A stretch of 64,000 nucleotides of DNA from Oscillospiraceae bacterium. GTDB lineage: Bacteria > Bacillota > Clostridia > Oscillospirales > Acutalibacteraceae. Position numbers and translations under genes: made by a program. The notes below the pieces were generated by a model. That model made no database searches. It had not been told where the DNA came from and was given only the letters and a program-made list of their open reading frames with translations. The stretch lies in the NCBI GenBank assembly GCA_910574995.1, contig CAJTCS010000001.1, positions 310,001 through 374,000 of the forward strand. Direction: 5' to 3'. Numbering within the stretch: the stretch's first letter is position 1; each line of letters opens with the position of its first letter. Below are positions 55,085 to 63,406 of this stretch, in pieces.

Positions 55085-55702
55085 ATGGGACCGTTGATTG
55101 AAATTAAAACAGTACCGATCGAGTTGGAGATGAAGACAAAAAACGCTCAGCTGCTTTATTCTCGCGGGACTGCCGAAATGGAAATCAGCCGTGACAAGGG
55201 TGGCGTCAGCATCAAAAGCAGGCCCATCAAGGTGAAGATGGATTCCTTTGAGGCGCAGAATTCTATCCGCCCCACCACGGTGCGCAGCATCGAGCAGGCC
55301 GCCCAGAAGGGCAAGCAGGCTGCCTATGAGGCCACGGCCACTTATGCCCAGCGGGGCCAGCTGATGCTGCGGGCCCAGGTGGGCGAAGAGCTGGTCACCC
55401 AGTTTGCGGAAGAGGATTTTGACAAGCAGATGATCGCCTATAAACAGGAGTTTGGCCTGGATTTTATCCCCAAGGGCGGCGTAGACCTGCAATGGGAAGG
55501 CGGCGAAATGCAGATCCGTTATGAGATGGATAAGTTGAACTTCAACTGGAAGACTGGCGGGGTGGGCTTTGAGTTCGTCCCGGGTGACATTGAGATTTCC
55601 GTAGTGCAGCGGCCAGAGGTTATCATCAAGTATGTAGGTGAACCCATGTATGTGCCGCCCTCGGCAAACCCCAATTACCAGCCAATAAACGTCGAGGCGT
55701 AA
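55085..55702 (+). CDS. DUF6470 family protein (YviE position)
   Basis: This 205-aa soluble protein lies between flgL and fliW, the place of B. subtilis yviE, and matches that family: PLIEIKTVPIELEMKTKNAQ, ISRDKGGVSIKSRPIKVKMD, and repeated PGDIEISVVQRPEVIIKYVG near the end. The function is unknown. Conserved position suggests a role in filament assembly or in FliW-CsrA control. Confidence 0.85.
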   Translation: MGPLIEIKTVPIELEMKTKNAQLLYSRGTAEMEISRDKGGVSIKSRPIKVKMDSFEAQNSIRPTTVRSIEQAAQKGKQAAYEATATYAQRGQLMLRAQVGEELVTQFAEEDFDKQMIAYKQEFGLDFIPKGGVDLQWEGGEMQIRYEMDKLNFNWKTGGVGFEFVPGDIEISVVQRPEVIIKYVGEPMYVPPSANPNYQPINVEA

Positions 55703-55714
55703 AGAGGTATTTTT

Positions 55715-56158
55715 GTGAAAATATCCACTAAATATTTCGGCGACATTGAGTACGAAAAAAAGGACGTCCTCTCGTTCCCCAAAGGGCTGTTTGCCTTTGA
55801 GGACGAGAAGGAGTTCCTTTTGCTGCCCTTCTCTGGCAGCGAGGGCGCCATGCTGTGCCTGCAGAGCCTGGGGACGCCCCAGCTGGCCTTTGTCGTGATG
55901 AACCCCTTTTCCCTCCGCCAGGAATACGCGCCCCAGCTCCAGCCGGAAGAGTTGAAGGAAATGGGCGTGGGGGACAGCCGGGACCTGTGCTTTTATGTGC
56001 TGTGCGTAGTGAAGAATCCTGTATCCAGCAGCACGGTGAATCTGAAGTGTCCTGTAGCCATCAATGATGAGACACGCCAGGGGATGCAGGTCATTTTGGA
56101 AGGGGATGACTATGAGATGCGCCATCTGCTTTCCGAATTTGCGGAAGGGGGAAAGTAA
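55715..56158 (+). CDS. fliW: Flagellar assembly factor FliW
   Basis: This 147-aa protein antagonises CsrA and binds flagellin. Conserved text includes ISTKYFGDIEYEKKDVLSFP, KGLFAFEDEKEFLLLPF, LAFVVMNPFSLRQEY, and NLKCPVAINDETRQGMQVIL. The start is GTG at 55715 after AAAGAGG. The next gene, csrA, begins 3 bp after its stop. FliW released when flagellin is exported frees or blocks CsrA, which controls flagellin translation in Bacillus. Confidence 0.96.
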   Translation: MKISTKYFGDIEYEKKDVLSFPKGLFAFEDEKEFLLLPFSGSEGAMLCLQSLGTPQLAFVVMNPFSLRQEYAPQLQPEELKEMGVGDSRDLCFYVLCVVKNPVSSSTVNLKCPVAINDETRQGMQVILEGDDYEMRHLLSEFAEGGK

Positions 56159-56160
56159 AA

Positions 56161-56442
56161 ATGCTTATCCTCCGCCGCAAGCCAGGGGAGTCTTTCCGTG
56201 TTGGGGGTAATGTAACGATAACGGTGCTCTCTTCAAAGGACAACGAAGTGCAGATCGCGATTGACGCGCCAAAAGAAGTGGCGGTTCTGCGCAGCGAACT
56301 ATATAATGCGATGAATGAAAACCGGGATGCGGCTGCTGAGCAGTCCCAACCTCAAGAGCTTTTGGCTTTGCTTAGCCACATGCAGCAGAAAGAGCCAGGG
56401 GAGAAACCGGATGGGGACAACCAAAAAAGAGGGGGCAAATAG
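56161..56442 (+). CDS. csrA: Translational regulator CsrA
   Basis: This 93-aa RNA-binding protein has the canonical start MLILRRKPGESFRVGGNVTI and VQIAIDAPKEVAVLRSELYN, followed by a C-terminal extension of about 30 residues with LLALLSHMQQKEPGEKPDG. Most CsrA are 60-75 aa. The core binds GGA loops in mRNA leaders, typically of flagellin. The last codons form the left arm of the operon terminator. Confidence 0.95.
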   Translation: MLILRRKPGESFRVGGNVTITVLSSKDNEVQIAIDAPKEVAVLRSELYNAMNENRDAAAEQSQPQELLALLSHMQQKEPGEKPDGDNQKRGGK

Positions 56443-56461
56443 GTATGCCCCCTCTTTTTTT
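56423..56461. terminator. Bidirectional terminator overlapping the csrA stop
   Basis: Stem AAAAAAGAGGGGGC / GCCCCCTCTTTTTTT with a short loop; the csrA stop codon lies in the loop. T tracts on both sides suit the convergent genes. Confidence 0.92.
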
Positions 56462-56474
56462 CCAGTTTTCAGGG

Positions 56475-57248
56475 TCAGTGCCGCGGGCTTTCCGAGACTT
56501 TCTTGCAGGCCCACATCAGCTGGGCGATAATAGCGGTGTTGTAGCGGCCTTCGTATACCGTAAGCATAGGGATCTCCTCTTGCTCCCGGACCACCACATA
56601 CTTGGCAGGCAGGCTGGTAAGGGCCAGCGCCATTACGTCTGTGCGGCAGCGGGGGCAAGAACACATGTCGAACATTTTGATATAGCGGTCCACCTTTTCC
56701 TCTACCAAAGCCTGCATGACGTTTAGGCAGGAAATGGCAGGGGCCGGCGCTTCTTCCGCTTCCGGCGTTGGGCCTTCTTCCTCTACCGGGGGGGGAAGCG
56801 CAGGGCCGGGTTCTTCCTCCGGGGCGGCGGTTTCCAGCTGGGGCTGGGGGGGGGCCTCCGGCTCTGGCACAGGCTCTTCCACGGGCGCGGGGAGATCGGG
56901 GCCTGCCTGTACGGTAGGTCCCGCTTCTACTACAGGGGCTAACTCCTGCATAGGGATAAACTCTGGTTCCGCCTCAACTTCCTGGGGTGGTTCCGGCTGC
57001 GGTGCGGCGGGCTGCGAAGGCTCTTCGGCCAGCTCGGCTGCCAAATCCTCTTCCAGGGCGTCCCGTATCTGTTGGGCAACGGTCTCGTTATCCGCCAGCT
57101 GGGGTGTGGCAGGGGGCGGTGCAGGGGAACGGGCGGCCTGGGAGGCGCCGTCTTCCACAGGGTGTTCGGTTTCGGTCAACAAGTTCAGTACATGGGCGGT
57201 CTTGCTGCTTTTTCCGCCGCGTCCAGATTTCCCATTTGCCTTTGGCAT
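56475..57248 (-). CDS. ComFB-domain protein with basic N-terminus and acidic Pro-rich linker
   Basis: This 257-aa protein has three parts. Residues 1-20 are strongly basic (MPKANGKSGRGGKSSK). Residues ~30-172 are a low-complexity Pro/Glu/Ala linker. Residues ~173-253 match the late-competence ComFB domain: CLNVMQALVEEKVDRYIKMF, the cysteine motif CSCPRCRTDVMALALTSLP, and YNTAIIAQLMWACKK. ComFB domains have been reported as cyclic-dinucleotide receptors in other bacteria. It lies 34 bp after a parA gene on the same strand, inside flagellar genes. A basic N-terminal peptide is a common feature of proteins that activate ParA ATPases, so I infer that the two work together. It could also only be a wall- or DNA-associated regulator. 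Confidence 0.78.
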   Translation of the reverse strand: MPKANGKSGRGGKSSKTAHVLNLLTETEHPVEDGASQAARSPAPPPATPQLADNETVAQQIRDALEEDLAAELAEEPSQPAAPQPEPPQEVEAEPEFIPMQELAPVVEAGPTVQAGPDLPAPVEEPVPEPEAPPQPQLETAAPEEEPGPALPPPVEEEGPTPEAEEAPAPAISCLNVMQALVEEKVDRYIKMFDMCSCPRCRTDVMALALTSLPAKYVVVREQEEIPMLTVYEGRYNTAIIAQLMWACKKVSESPRH

Positions 57249-57282
57249 ATTTGTTCACATTCCTTTCTGTGTATGGTGCAAG

Positions 57283-58062
57283 TCAGCGGATGGGGGGCCA
57301 AGGGGCCGGGTTCCCCATCAATTCGTCCAGAAGCGCCTGGAAGTCCTGGGAAGGCTTAGAAGAGGGGGCGTAGCTTAAAACACTTTCCCCGTGGGCGGGG
57401 GCTTCGGCCACGGCCACGCTGGTACGGATCTTTGTCTCGAAGACTTTGGTATCCAGCCGGCGGGCAATCTCCCCGGAAAGTTCAAGCACCTCCCGGTTCA
57501 GGGTCAGGCGGTTATTGAATTTATTCAGCAAAATACCTAGCACCCGCAGGTCTGGGTTGTAGTATTTACGCACGGTGTTAATGGTATCCAATATCTGGGA
57601 GATGCCCAGGAGGCTTAAAATTTCCGGGGCCATGGGAATGATCAGCGCGCCGGAAGCCACATAGGCATTCACCGTCAAAACGTTCAGAGCGGGGGGGGTA
57701 TCGATGATAATATAATCGTAACGGTTGGACACATGGTCCAGCTCGTTCTTCAGCATGTATTCCCGGCCTGGAGAGTTGAACTCCAGCTCGGCTGTGGACA
57801 GCAGGATATTAGAGGGCAGGATATCCCCCAATTCGGTAGAGACGATGGCGCTTTCCACCTGGGCCGTGCCTTTGAAGACCTCATACACGGTGGTGCTGTT
57901 TTCAATATCCAGCCCGGCGGAGAAACCCAGGCTGCCTTGGGGGTCCAGGTCAACGCCCAGCACCCGCAGGCCGCGCATGTGCAGGGCATTGATGAGGGAA
58001 AGCGAAGTGGTAGTTTTGCCCACACCGCCTTTCTGGTTGGTTACGGTGATGATTTTTTCCAT
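57283..58062 (-). CDS. ParA/Soj-like ATPase (orphan)
   Basis: This 259-aa deviant Walker A ATPase has TVTNQKGGVGKTTTSLSL (deviant P-loop with signature lysine), VLGVDLDPQGSLGFSAG, Walker B YDYIIIDTPPALNVLTVNAY and a C-terminal helix region typical of small ParA/Soj. Lacking a helix-turn-helix, it belongs to the group that positions chromosomes, plasmids, carboxysomes or chemosensory arrays by walking on the nucleoid. There is no parB or parS site here. Its operon partner is the ComFB-domain protein. The location between csrA and fliD suggests a role in placing motility or chemotaxis components; that is inference. Confidence 0.9.
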   Translation of the reverse strand: MEKIITVTNQKGGVGKTTTSLSLINALHMRGLRVLGVDLDPQGSLGFSAGLDIENSTTVYEVFKGTAQVESAIVSTELGDILPSNILLSTAELEFNSPGREYMLKNELDHVSNRYDYIIIDTPPALNVLTVNAYVASGALIIPMAPEILSLLGISQILDTINTVRKYYNPDLRVLGILLNKFNNRLTLNREVLELSGEIARRLDTKVFETKIRTSVAVAEAPAHGESVLSYAPSSKPSQDFQALLDELMGNPAPWPPIR

Positions 58063-58104
58063 ATGGAACCTCTCTATCTAAGAGCAAATTTTTGCTGAAA
58101 GCCC

Positions 58105-58131
58105 TTATCTTTCTATTTTCTATGTCGATAT
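58105..58131 (+). promoter_or_regulatory. Sigma-D-like promoter for fliD-fliS
   Basis: (C)TTAT, exactly 15 bp, GTCGATAT. A small palindrome AGCAAA-TT-TTTGCT lies just upstream at 58083-58096 and could be an operator for parA or fliD. Confidence 0.55.
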
Positions 58132-58264
58132 AAATAGGGAAAGAGTTAAGTGTTTTTGCGGCTTTTTTTCAAGATTTAGCCATTCTTTTTTCAAAAACGG
58201 GCTTAACTCCCATCTGGTATACCCTTGTGTTGTGCATTTTTACTATAAAAAGGAGTGAGAATTT

Positions 58265-60718
58265 GTGGCATCTATCAGTAGCTTGATGGGAAGCGGTTCT
58301 ACCAGTAGTATCTACGGAAACCGTAATGTTATCAGCGGCCTTGCCAGCGGCATGGATACCGAGGCTATGATCGAAAATAGTATTGCCGGTTACAAGAATA
58401 AGATCATGGCGCTGCAGAAAAAGCAGGTTAAAACAGAGTGGCAGCAGGACGCTTACCGCAGCATCATCAGCAAGATGGTGGGCCTTACCCAGAAGTATAC
58501 CTCTTATACTTCCGGTACCAACCTGTTTAGCAATTCCTTCTTCAATAGGGCCGTCACTTCCACCGCCCATGGCTCTAACGCCTCGAAGGTTTCAGCTACC
58601 GGCAAGAGCAGCAACAATATCTCCATCGAGAGCGTCAGCTCTGTAGCCAAGGCCGCCCGGTATTCTACCGGTGCCCAGCAGCTGGTGGACAACGCCTCTA
58701 GGACGGAGGCCATGGACTGGTCTGAAAACGGCGTTACCGAAAGCACTATCGCCGGTACCATCAACATGAAATACGGCAACAACAGCCTTAGCCTGCGTTT
58801 TGGGGAGAACGACATTTTCGAGTCTACGCAGGACCTGGTGGACGAGATCAACAAGCAGCTGGCCGACCAGACCATCAAGACCAACAGCGGCTCCGGTAAA
58901 GCTTCCGACTACCTGGAGGCCAAGACCTACGGTGACGGCCGTATTGTTTTCGAGCAGAAAAAGGCGCAGAACAAGTTCTACTTTGAAAGCGCCAGCGAGA
59001 ACATAGAAAAAACGATGGGCCTGGAGACCGGCGAGGACAGCCCTACTGTCTTGTTTGCACCGGATAAGCAGCTGACCCAAAAGACCAGCCTGGTGGAGCA
59101 CATGAAGGACCGCACCATGAGCTTTACCCTGGATGGCGTGACCAAGACCATCAGCCTGGGCCCCAAGGGTGAAAATGACACAGAGTACCAGGAGTTTGCG
59201 AAGCTTGCCTCTGACCCCAATATTGGCGATAAGAAAAAGGCGGAGACCTTCTCCCGGTTCCTGCAGAAGCGCGTAGACGAAGCGTTTGGCAAGGACAGGA
59301 TTTCCATAGGCGAAAGGAAAGTGGCGGACGCTGACGGGAAGGTGTCCTATGCCCTGGACATCAAGGCCTATGAGGGCAACAACGACCAGAACCACACCCT
59401 TACGGTTACCTCTTCTGCCAGCCGGGCCCTGGGCTTGGGCAACACGGGCATCGGCAACACCATGAACACCAGCTGGACGCTGGGCGATGTGATGGCGGAC
59501 GATTATTTTGCCAAGAGGAACGAAGACGGCAGTATCGCAAAGGATGAGAGCGGCAAGACCATTTATGAAAAGAAAGACCTGGTCATCAATGGCAAGACCA
59601 TCGGTACCTTTGATAAGGACACGACGCTGGAAAGCGTGCTGACCAGCATCAACAATAACGCGGACGCGGGGGTGAACGTAAGCTTTTCTAAGCTGACCAA
59701 TGAGTTCGTCTTTACCAGCCGCGAAACGGGCTCCCACAAGGAGATTACCATGGACAGCGACTTTGCCAAGGCGCTGTTTGGCGACGCCAGCAAAGCCGGC
59801 ACGGCTGAAAACCCCACCGCAAAGTATGAAAAGGGTGAGGACACGGTCTTTACCGCCAATATAAACGGCAGCAGCAAGACCTTTACCCGCTCTACCAATG
59901 TGGTAGACCTGGATGGCTTGTCCGTTACGTTTAAGGAAACCTTTGATTCGAAAGCCGTGGACGGCGGCGACGCGGTTACCTTTACTACCGCTACCGATAC
60001 GGACACGATTGTAGACGCTATCAAGTCCTTTGTAGAGGACTATAATGCCATGGCTTCGGAAATCCACAGCGCCTATTCCACTTTGCCATATCAGAAGAGC
60101 AGCGGCTCTTTCGCCAATTACGAGCCTCTGGTGGGGGACGAAACCGACGGTTACAGTGAGAGCGAGCTGAAACGCTATGAGGAAAAGGCCAAGCAGGGCA
60201 TCCTCTTTGGCGACCGGGATCTCTCCACCTTGTACCGGGACCTGACTAGCGCCATCCAAAGCAGCGGCGTAGACGGGGCGACACTGCGCTCGATCGGCAT
60301 CGAGACCAGCTATGCGGACGGCATGACCACCCTTAAGCTGAATGAGACCAAGCTGCGTGAGGCCCTTTCGGCCGACCCTGACAAGGTGCGGGACGCTTTT
60401 ACCAAAACCAAGGAAAACGGGGCTTCTTCTAACGGCCTGATGTATAATTTGAAAAACACCATGGACCGGTATGCCAGCACCTCCATCGCCAACCCCGGCA
60501 CACTGGTGAAAAAGGCCGGCACGCCCTTATCCTCCTACTCCCTGCAAAGCAACGTCCTCCAGGACCAGATTGACAGCCTGGAAACCCAGATTGAAAAATG
60601 GCAGGACAAGATGAGCGACCGTATCGATTATTATACCAACCAGTTTACCCGTTTGGAGCAGCTCATCAACCAGATGAACTCCCAAAGCTCTGCTTTGGCC
60701 GGGCTGATGGGCGGCTGA
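58265..60718 (+). CDS. fliD: Flagellar filament cap protein FliD (hook-associated protein 2)
   Basis: This 817-aa protein is far longer than typical FliD (about 450-650 aa). The N-terminal domain has NVISGLASGMDTEAMIENSI and KIMALQKKQVKTEWQQDAYR; the C-terminal coiled coil has LRSIGIETSYADGMTTLKLN, DQIDSLETQIEKWQDKMSDR and YTNQFTRLEQLINQMNSQSS. The extra length lies in the central surface-exposed domains. FliD caps the filament and inserts flagellin. The start is GTG at 58265 after AAAAAGGAG. fliS follows. Confidence 0.95.
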   Translation: MASISSLMGSGSTSSIYGNRNVISGLASGMDTEAMIENSIAGYKNKIMALQKKQVKTEWQQDAYRSIISKMVGLTQKYTSYTSGTNLFSNSFFNRAVTSTAHGSNASKVSATGKSSNNISIESVSSVAKAARYSTGAQQLVDNASRTEAMDWSENGVTESTIAGTINMKYGNNSLSLRFGENDIFESTQDLVDEINKQLADQTIKTNSGSGKASDYLEAKTYGDGRIVFEQKKAQNKFYFESASENIEKTMGLETGEDSPTVLFAPDKQLTQKTSLVEHMKDRTMSFTLDGVTKTISLGPKGENDTEYQEFAKLASDPNIGDKKKAETFSRFLQKRVDEAFGKDRISIGERKVADADGKVSYALDIKAYEGNNDQNHTLTVTSSASRALGLGNTGIGNTMNTSWTLGDVMADDYFAKRNEDGSIAKDESGKTIYEKKDLVINGKTIGTFDKDTTLESVLTSINNNADAGVNVSFSKLTNEFVFTSRETGSHKEITMDSDFAKALFGDASKAGTAENPTAKYEKGEDTVFTANINGSSKTFTRSTNVVDLDGLSVTFKETFDSKAVDGGDAVTFTTATDTDTIVDAIKSFVEDYNAMASEIHSAYSTLPYQKSSGSFANYEPLVGDETDGYSESELKRYEEKAKQGILFGDRDLSTLYRDLTSAIQSSGVDGATLRSIGIETSYADGMTTLKLNETKLREALSADPDKVRDAFTKTKENGASSNGLMYNLKNTMDRYASTSIANPGTLVKKAGTPLSSYSLQSNVLQDQIDSLETQIEKWQDKMSDRIDYYTNQFTRLEQLINQMNSQSSALAGLMGG

Positions 60719-60779
60719 TAAGCTGGCTTTTTACAGGGGGAAAGCTTTTTTACCACAATTGAAAGGCATGGGCAACACA

Positions 60780-61163
60780 ATGGAACACAATGCTTTCCAA
60801 CAGTATAAAGAACAGTCCATCAACACCATGACGCCAAACGAGCTGCTTCTCCTCCTGTATGACGAGCTGGTAAAGCACCTGCTGCGGTGCGAGTTGGCGC
60901 TGGACAAGGAAGAATATGACCAGCTGGAGGCTTCGGCAGATCGCAGCATGGATATTATCCAGTATTTGGATGATACGTTAGACCGTCAGTATGCCATCAG
61001 CCACGACCTCCACCGCCTGTACGATTATTTCAGCTATCAGCTTGGCCGGGTAAAGATTGGGCGGAATCGAGAGGTTTTGCACGAAATCAAACCAATGATC
61101 ATGGACCTGCGGGAAAGCTTCCGCGCGGCGGAAAAGAACTGCGCGGAGGCGGCCCCGGAGTAG
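60780..61163 (+). CDS. fliS: Flagellin export chaperone FliS
   Basis: This 127-aa helical protein starts NAFQQYKEQSINTMTPNELL, followed by LLYDELVKHLLRCELAL and the helix ending with YDYFSYQLGRVKIGRNREVL. FliS binds the flagellin C-terminus before export and also FliW in some bacteria. Several starts are possible (TTG 60759, ATG 60768, ATG 60780); I took 60780 because it gives the usual FliS N-terminus and AAAGG lies 13 bp upstream. Confidence 0.94.
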   Translation: MEHNAFQQYKEQSINTMTPNELLLLLYDELVKHLLRCELALDKEEYDQLEASADRSMDIIQYLDDTLDRQYAISHDLHRLYDYFSYQLGRVKIGRNREVLHEIKPMIMDLRESFRAAEKNCAEAAPE

Positions 61164-61185: not shown

Positions 61186-61584
61186 ATGGATACGCATATC
61201 CTGTCAGACCTATTTATAAAGGCCCGGAAGCAGTACATCAAGCTGCTGGAGTTTTTTGACCTTACCCAACAGCTGGGCCAGGCTGTAGACCGCAAGGACG
61301 AGGTTTCGGTCCAGATGCTGCTGCATATGCGGGAAGACCCGGTAAATGCCCTGAAACAGCTGGAGGCCCAGATCCACGAGGGGGTGCTGAAGCTTCCGGA
61401 GGAGGACGCTATCCGCGCCCACCAGCTGCTGACGGGCAGCGGGCCCAAAAAAGAAGAGGAAGAGGCGCTTTGTGGCCAGATTGCCCAGAATAGGCGTTTG
61501 CTGGACAAAGCCCAAGAGCTGGACAAAAGGGTCAGCATGCGTATGGACGGCCGGCACTCCTTCTATTCAAAATTCAGAACATAA
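61186..61584 (+). CDS. Small helical protein in FliT position
   Basis: This 132-aa protein is charged, all-helical by eye, and follows fliS by 22 bp. That is the place of fliT, the FliD chaperone, in many flagellar operons. Text such as ARKQYIKLLEFFDLTQQLGQ and LDKAQELDKRVSMRMDGRHS is FliT/FlgN-like but too weak to be sure. A modest hairpin (about 61599-61621) follows and may end the operon. Confidence 0.6.
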   Translation: MDTHILSDLFIKARKQYIKLLEFFDLTQQLGQAVDRKDEVSVQMLLHMREDPVNALKQLEAQIHEGVLKLPEEDAIRAHQLLTGSGPKKEEEEALCGQIAQNRRLLDKAQELDKRVSMRMDGRHSFYSKFRT

Positions 61585-62701: not shown

Positions 62702-63406
62702 ATGCCAACCATCCGTTTGGAACACGTTTCAAAAGTATTCAAAGGCCGCCGCCACAAGTTCGAAACCTTACGTGACGTAAACCTTACCATAGAACAAGGC
62801 GAGTTTGTTTTCCTCATTGGCAGCCGGGGCGCGGGCAGCACCACACTGCTGAATATGATTGCGGGCGACCTGCCACCAGACGACGGCAACGTGTATCTGG
62901 ATCGCTTTGACCTTGACAAGCTTAACCGCCGGCAGCAGAAAAAACTGCCCTACATTTTCGGGCGGGTTCCCCAGGAATCCCAGCTGGTGCGGGGGGCCAC
63001 GGTGTATGACAACATGTGCTCCATGAAGAAAATGGAACGGTTGCGCGCCAAGCTGACCGACGAGCCCCGGATGAAGAAAGCGCTAGCCTTGGTGGGCATG
63101 GCCGGCTGTGAATACCGTTACCCCCTGGAGATGTCTATTTCAGAGTGCAAAAGGGTCGAACTGGCAAAGGCGATCCTCAACAGCCCGCCTATCCTGCTGT
63201 TGGATAAAATTACCGACCGGATGGACGACGACAGCATCTGGGATATTTTCCACCTTTTGCATGAGATGAACAAGCTGGGGACCACGGTGGTTATGTCCAC
63301 ACACGCCAGGCAGTTCGTAAATATAATGCGCAGGCGTGTGGTTACGTTGGTAGATGGACGGGTGGTGGGGGATGTGGAAAAAGGGCGCTTTGGCGATATC
63401 GTGTAA
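62702..63406 (+). CDS. FtsE-like ABC protein with degenerate ATPase motifs (predicted pseudo-ATPase)
   Basis: This 234-aa protein follows the FtsE plan from end to end (IRLEHVSKVFKGRRHKFETL, VNLTIEQGEFVFLIG, LLNMIAGDLPPDDGNVYLD). Its catalytic motifs are altered: Walker A is GSRGAGSTT (40-48), with serine in place of the lysine at 46. The signature is MSISECKRV instead of LSGGEQQRV, and Walker B is ILLLDKI, with lysine 169 in place of the catalytic glutamate. The Q-loop glutamine (Q91) and H-loop histidine (H201 in STHARQF) remain. The frame is intact with an AAGGAG site. No ftsX follows. I infer a non-hydrolysing regulatory or structural protein. Confidence 0.85.
   Translation: MPTIRLEHVSKVFKGRRHKFETLRDVNLTIEQGEFVFLIGSRGAGSTTLLNMIAGDLPPDDGNVYLDRFDLDKLNRRQQKKLPYIFGRVPQESQLVRGATVYDNMCSMKKMERLRAKLTDEPRMKKALALVGMAGCEYRYPLEMSISECKRVELAKAILNSPPILLLDKITDRMDDDSIWDIFHLLHEMNKLGTTVVMSTHARQFVNIMRRRVVTLVDGRVVGDVEKGRFGDIV

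Follow-up and report, generated by a model that had tools for sequence, protein, structure and literature searches.

A conserved ParA-ComFB gene pair, found mostly among flagellar genes, as a possible unrecognised means of flagellar placement or counting

Introduction

Why should the gene of a ParA-type ATPase stand among flagellar genes, next to a gene for a ComFB-domain protein and with no parB beside it? The cargoes that ATPases of the A/D class position include chromosomes and carboxysomes, and also flagella and chemosensory clusters (PMC10241942). In the McdA-McdB system, binding of McdA requires the N-terminal 20 residues of McdB, some of them basic, and these residues are also sufficient for it (PMC12204374, a preprint). 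The ComFB protein of B. subtilis is a dimer in which zinc is held by C25, C27, C30 and C88; at the last of these positions homologues have either C or H (PMC4381287). In cyanobacteria, ComFB has c-di-AMP (KD 2.6 uM) and c-di-GMP as ligands, and pili are altered when the protein is lost (PMC12313861). For the background on FlhF and FlhG our source is PMC12826062. What we take from these papers, and from the others cited below, rests on parts of their texts. Among the titles and abstracts listed in searches of an open-licence library, no paper dealt with the pairing of ParA with ComFB.

We analysed a stretch of 64,000 nucleotides (hereafter the window) from the genome of an Oscillospiraceae bacterium (contig CAJTCS010000001.1, positions 310,001 to 374,000). 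A first-pass annotation of this stretch had proposed that the two genes form a positioning system inside the flagellar island, in which the ComFB protein might stimulate ParA through its basic tail and tie positioning to the level of a second messenger. As a whole, this interpretation is partly supported by the results presented here.

Results

The locus

The coordinates of the ORFs and the Pfam matches agree with the first-pass annotation that parA and the ComFB gene lie 34 bp apart on the minus strand, between csrA and fliD (Table 1). The inverted repeat between csrA and comFB resembles a terminator serving csrA (+) as well as comFB (-), and parA-comFB is thus probably its own transcription unit. 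This repeat was absent from the output of a general consensus scan for promoters and terminators around the pair, in which the number of sites was not above that of shuffles. A sigma-D scan allowing 3 mismatches returned 47 matches in the window against 31.9 expected, a number reached in 1 of 100 shuffles, from which we draw no inference; one of the 47 is a sigma-D-like site at 58105 with 3 mismatches. The divergence of parA and fliD is seen again in many relatives of the window's clade.

Table 1. Features of the window around the ParA-ComFB pair
Feature	Position	Strand	Basis or remark
DUF6470 gene, function unknown	55085-55702	+	between flgL and fliW in the window and in many relatives
ORF that we take to be fliW	55715-56158	+	ORF, named from position and sequence; similar ORFs in relatives
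csrA, 93 aa, convergent with the ComFB gene	56161-56442	+	Pfam
Inverted repeat, A-run and T-run on its two sides, overlapping the end of csrA	56423-56461		seen in the sequence itself
ComFB-domain partner gene, 257 aa: basic tail, acidic linker and ComFB domain	56475-57248	-	ORF list; Pfam
ComFB domain, residues 176-257	56478-56723	-	PF10719 5.7e-15; PDB 4wai match 5.9e-06
CSCPRC (C196, C198, C201), three of four presumed zinc ligands	56646-56663	-	
Acidic Pro/Ala/Glu-rich linker, residues 26-175	56724-57173	-	length varies among relatives
Basic N-terminal tail, residues 1-25, motif ..SSKTAHVLNLL, presumed ParA contact	57174-57248	-	recurring motif
Gap between parA and the ComFB gene	57249-57282		34 bp
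parA, ParA-type (AAA_31) ATPase, 259 aa	57283-58062	-	ORF list; Pfam AAA_31 1.3e-51
parA/fliD divergent intergenic region	58063-58264		presumed home of both promoters
fliD, divergent from parA	58265-60718	+	FliD_N match at that place
fliS	60759-61163	+	Pfam
132-aa ORF after fliS, perhaps a flagellar chaperone	61186-61584	+	no Pfam match at E 0.01; recurs there in many pair loci
ABC ATPase gene, presumably FtsE-like	62702-63406	+	recurs beyond fliS in many pair loci

Conservation of the pair

PF10719 searches gave matches in 15 of the 200 genomes of the family sample, 37 of the 295 of the order sample and 88 of the 291 of the class sample. The phylum sample was searched with a profile of the tailed ComFB proteins, which matched 171 of 299 genomes, mostly through the domain alone. 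All the family places and all 41 order-sample places were fetched, together with selected places only from the class and the phylum. This resulted in 77 ComFB ORFs at E at most 1e-9, including seven ComFB-bearing loci from named genomes (a weak match in G431, L078, was dropped), to which 14 further order-sample ORFs were added, making 91 in total.

The first-pass annotation had beforehand made its reading depend on conservation of the pair in relatives. This conservation is found: at 40 of the 91 ComFB ORFs, ParA stands immediately upstream in the same orientation, and at the other 51 it does not. These 40 pairs belong to 39 genomes (G279 contributes two contigs), and the recurrence of ParA just upstream of a tailed ComFB in so many genomes is more than chance. 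The domain is preceded by more than 50 residues in 46 of the 77 ORFs, and ParA stands directly upstream of 40 of these and of none of the 31 short ones. In our judgement the extra length of the six long ORFs without ParA (L064, L186, L187, L190, L191 and L193), none of which matches the tail pattern described below, looks like the product of over-long ORF starts. No ParA was seen in the stretches of the 14 added ORFs. With 31 short and 14 further ORFs lacking ParA upstream, we reject a universal pairing of ComFB with ParA. Outside the order, few pairs were seen in the class and phylum surveys, for which selected places were fetched.

One ORF scored as short (L069, G399) lies on a contig whose end cuts it off before any ParA, and another contig of G399 has a ParA-type match beside fliD; we therefore counted G399 as a pair genome split by the assembly. 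Pair genomes therefore number 40, and the order sample contains 19 of these. The window's genome has one ComFB place. Some relatives depart from the usual arrangement. G941 has a solitary tail-less ComFB between fliW and fliD (L197 6140-6472), where relatives have ParA-ComFB, and its ParA and tailed ComFB are located elsewhere in the genome; G965 has a further ComFB match beside fliD. The tail-less copy of G941 and the extra copy of G965 are outside the 91. In G976, a 441-aa ComFB protein with two ComFB matches (L192 5294-6619) stands beside ParA, and this pair adjoins amino-acid synthesis-type genes, named from the starts of their sequences only.

ParA and the question of parB

The window's ParA has the deviant Walker A (KGGVGKT) and the Walker A' and Walker B aspartates, and the Walker A, A' and B residues K11, G12, G13, K16, T17, D38, D40 and D121 are invariant in all the 26 pair ParA proteins (of 40) that were aligned. 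As the first-pass annotation had it, no parB lies beside parA: the window's genome has nine ParB_N matches (one under the cut-off), none of them on the window's contig. It also has twelve AAA_31 matches. Judging from coordinates, a ParB_N match lies no further than about 1 kb from each of six other ParA places (of which one, on C4, has an in-frame stop), and the window's ParA has a ComFB gene where these six have their ParB_N neighbour. Three further genes are also without a ParB_N match nearby: an orphan ParA (C18), a broken copy (C1) and a MinD-like gene (C3). The C18 gene (C18:7338-7853, L016) forms a long branch beside the pair ParA. The ParA places C1:690348-690946 and C4:325618-326216 are near-identical; both are divided between two frames, the first part containing an in-frame TGA.

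Another way in which the first-pass reading might have failed, a parB in some other part of the genome that is the evident partner of this parA, is ruled out by these ParB_N and AAA_31 places. The control search points the same way. With seven of the ParB proteins of the window's genome as queries, a ParB-like ORF was found in none of the 78 ComFB survey stretches versus 69 of 73 ordinary ParA loci in the same search.

We built a quick tree from 118 ParA sequences (40 from pairs, 72 others and 6 of the window's genome). It groups 38 of the 40 pair ParA with a support of 99, the long-branched L124 and the C18 orphan being nested inside. The ParA of L060 and L061 fall elsewhere, and the tails of their partners lack the shared motifs; the pairing may thus have arisen twice. 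Among the best 80 of the ParA loci listed for named genomes, ComFB adjoins ParA in 7, and these 7 have the highest ParA identity to the window (45-69%) among the 80. They come from an Intestinimonas MAG, a soil Bacillota MAG, an Oscillibacter MAG, UBA3871, two Lachnospiraceae and an Erysipelotrichaceae MAG, and all 7 stretches have flagellar profile matches, L102 by the flgK-type profile only.

Chance neighbourhood, or a relic of DNA partition, was rejected on the strength of the conservation, the tree and the ParB control.

The tailed ComFB protein

The ComFB protein of the window has the three parts described by the first-pass annotation: a strongly basic start (residues 1-16 have a net charge of +5 and are followed by SKTAHVLNLL), an acidic, Pro-rich linker of considerable length (61% P+A+E) and a ComFB domain with the CSCPRC motif. 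The basic N-terminus, which was expected to recur in homologues, does so in all 40 paired proteins, which are net positive in their first 16 residues (mean +3.4, range +1 to +7, at least +2 in 38), the starts of L048, L049, L101 and L105 being possibly over-long. By comparison, the 31 short ComFB ORFs average -0.4 over the same length. One of two recurring motifs is found in 38 of the 40 tails, ..SKTAHVLNLL or close forms in 26 and ..DKEMYKKIMPS or close forms in 12; the two others (L060 and L061) have neither. Of the 37 unpaired ORFs to which the tail pattern was applied, none matches it, a figure that is descriptive and no test, since the pattern was written after the first alignments, with some wording for single cases. 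The difference in charge is independent of this wording.

The linker is 23 to 303 residues long among the pairs (omitting L192, which has a further ComFB domain in its stretch) and net negative in 37 of 40. The domain itself matches PF10719 with 55.6 bits (cut-off 25) over residues 176-255. C196, C198, C201 and H257 are invariant in all 30 aligned rows, and H257 is presumed to be the fourth zinc ligand. At the dimer-interface positions N4, E7, D33, N40 and Y46 of ComFB, the window's protein has N, Q, D, T and Y in the alignment with 4wai. Within the window's clade, 6 of 26 proteins retain E7 and 4 of 26 retain N40; all 12 proteins of the other tailed clade have both, and among the 37 unpaired proteins 32 have E7 and 36 have N40. 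The altered interface residues of the window's clade could reflect a changed dimer or pocket. We found no residues given for cyclic-dinucleotide binding in the parts of the ComFB papers that we used (PMC12313861, PMC13075795, PMC4381287).

Association with flagella

Is the flagellar setting of the window a general trait of the pair? FliD_N matched in 51 of the 295 order-sample genomes, including all 19 pair genomes of that sample, an overlap with a chance of 1e-16 if genomes were independent, which related genomes are not. It also matched in all the remaining 21 pair genomes, though weakly in G976 (8.9e-6, partial). Five pair-bearing genera (g140, g174, g196, g220 and g249) also hold genomes without FliD, and in these genera FliD and the pair occur together in 8 genomes and are both missing from 9. 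Against this stands G328, a flagellated member of genus g189, to which the pair-bearing G276 also belongs: it has no ComFB match at all.

The setting assumed by the first-pass annotation is thus stronger than it had noted at the level of genomes, with FliD in all 40 pair genomes and FlhF and FlhG not found where tested, but less uniform at the level of loci. At least one of eight flagellar profiles matches in 31 of the 40 pair stretches, flgK, flgL, DUF6470, fliW, csrA, fliD and fliS being among the profile neighbours; in the fetched stretches of the other nine (L048, L050, L051, L060, L061, L077, which is a 3.8 kb contig, L184, L185 and L192) none of these profiles matched. By Pfam, the neighbours in L185 include an FlhB C-terminal match and two PilZ genes, and the FlhB-type gene argues for a flagellar setting there. 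Nothing seen in the stretches of L048, L050, L051, L060, L061 and L192 argues for one. In L055 the pair is flanked by cheD and cheC, with a CheA-type kinase about 4 kb off and a sigma-70 factor, flhA and an HDOD-EAL gene among the neighbours; L066 has flagellin, and a CheA-type kinase about 4 kb off.

FlhF is above the cut-off in 17 of the 295 order-sample genomes. Of these, 14 are among the 51 with FliD and none is a pair genome (0 of 19). The window's genome (G000), with a best match of 8.0e-21, is not among the 17. An FlhG gene stands beside FlhF in 5 of 5 fetched loci, from which we built an FlhG profile to search 62 genomes, 30 of them pair genomes. This profile scored 381-510 bits in 13 genomes, all with FlhF, and not above 111 bits in any other of the 62 (70.7 bits at best in G000), so that FlhG was found in none of the 30 pair genomes searched. 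The 51 flagellated genomes of the order sample are therefore divided into 19 with the pair, 14 with FlhF and 18 with neither. The lack of any overlap between FlhF and the pair has a chance of 3.7e-4 counted by genome and of 0.016 by genus; since the latter value is only 0.016, the exclusion could reflect descent. The pair is dispensable for flagella, as 32 of the 51 flagellated genomes lack it, 18 of these being also without FlhF.

Discussion

We showed that ParA-ComFB is a real, conserved and flagellum-associated module. As for its function, we lean, a little beyond even chances, towards a dedicated two-protein positioning module of the A/D class, with the tailed ComFB dimer as adaptor and a flagellar or chemosensory cargo. 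ParA would dimerise with ATP on the nucleoid, and the ComFB protein, a zinc-stabilised dimer, would act as the adaptor, with its two basic N-terminal tails extending on the long disordered linker to dock at the ParA dimer. Docking would lead to ATP hydrolysis and release of ParA, in the way reported for McdB and further partners of such ATPases. The ComFB domain would be tied to the flagellar (or chemosensory) machinery or to its assembly factors, and the module would set the place or number of flagella or arrays in genomes without FlhF and FlhG. Against this reading stand the nine pair stretches in which no flagellar profile matched, the flagellated genomes that lack the pair, G328 among them, and the mostly changed dimer-interface residues E7 and N40 in the window's clade. 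The parts of this scheme are not equally firm. By analogy with McdB, contact between the tail and ParA is likely; a flagellar or chemosensory cargo is fairly likely, and positioning seems somewhat likelier than another kind of control. Since cyanobacterial ComFB proteins bind c-di-AMP and c-di-GMP, a ligand may switch the adaptor, and by this analogy a dinucleotide switch is possible. GGDEF genes were present in all 30 pair genomes searched (31 genomes were searched, of which G425 is not a pair genome). One might go further and regard the pair as a second, independently evolved system of flagellar placement or counting, which would replace FlhF-FlhG in many gut Clostridia and read c-di-GMP or c-di-AMP directly, the number or place of flagella being set by the second messenger. 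We hold this larger view to be doubtful, though worth stating.

The pair might instead control the expression of flagellar genes, ParA-ATP or the ComFB dimer binding a flagellar regulator or the CsrA/FliW switch to repress or release it. FleN/FlhG acts on FleQ in this manner. Many loci of the window's clade stand beside csrA-fliW and divergent from fliD, the solitary tail-less ComFB of G941 stands between fliW and fliD, and CdgR, a cyanobacterial ComFB protein, works through an interaction with DevH (PMC13075795). Yet the tail and the full set of ATPase motifs match known positioning partners (PMC12204374), and several pair stretches, e.g. L055, L048, L050 and L051, have no csrA or fliW; we think such control unlikely. 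Alternatively, the cargo might be the chemosensory array, as for ParC-type ATPases, and not the flagellum. This is at odds with most pairs of the window's clade, which adjoin fliD and fliS (che genes were sought by Pfam around L055 and L066 only), and we see it as quite improbable in spite of the place of L055 between cheD and cheC, of the CheA-type genes at the same distance in L055 and L066, and of the chemosensory clusters of H. neapolitanus, which are positioned by an A/D ATPase (PMC10241942).

It has also to be considered that the ComFB domain gates the same ParA module by sensing zinc or redox state and not a cyclic dinucleotide. The structural study of B. subtilis ComFB proposed sensing of this kind (PMC4381287), and the invariance of the zinc ligand pattern (30 of 30) would fit it, but zinc might be purely structural, and binding of c-di-AMP and c-di-GMP is known for two ComFB proteins of cyanobacteria (PMC12313861), which leaves us with little expectation that it is so. 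Finally, the ATPase is of the partition type and its genome has several partition parA genes, so it could be left over from DNA partition and lie beside an unrelated ComFB gene. With 40 conserved pairs, each with a basic tail, FliD in all 40 pair genomes, and ParB-like ORFs missing from the survey stretches and common at ordinary ParA loci, this explanation is very hard to believe.

How would a ParA-ComFB positioning module relate to known systems? It resembles McdA-McdB in that the gene of a ParA-type ATPase adjoins that of a partner with a short basic N-terminal stretch, but here the partner has a ComFB domain and the link is to flagella and not to carboxysomes. With FlhF-FlhG it shares an A/D-class ATPase tied to flagella, albeit one of the ParA and not the MinD type, and the pair and FlhF occur together in 0 of 295 genomes. 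Systems of ParC-type chemosensory positioning also have a ParA-like ATPase in motility loci; the adaptor here is a ComFB protein, and most copies of the window's clade are beside fliD and fliS. ParABS partition has the same ParA fold and motifs, and the presumed chromosomal ParB of the window's genome also starts basic, like the partner of the pair; yet the pair ParA has no parB beside it and its partner has no ParB domain. The ComFB protein of B. subtilis has the same domain with the same zinc-ligand pattern, and ComFB and CdgR of cyanobacteria, which bind c-di-AMP and c-di-GMP, also have this domain. In contrast to the pair, their contexts are competence, pili and cell size, and the parts of the texts that we used mention no ParA partner.

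ParA/MinD ATPases are told apart by their adaptors, and a ComFB adaptor, if our reading is true, would be a new kind. To our knowledge it would also be the first flagellum-linked adaptor of the ParA, and not the MinD, type. The ComFB domain, about whose function outside cyanobacteria little is known, would thereby gain a role. Flagellar control in the flagellated Bacillota that lack FlhF and FlhG would then become testable, and flagellar placement could be tied directly to a second messenger.
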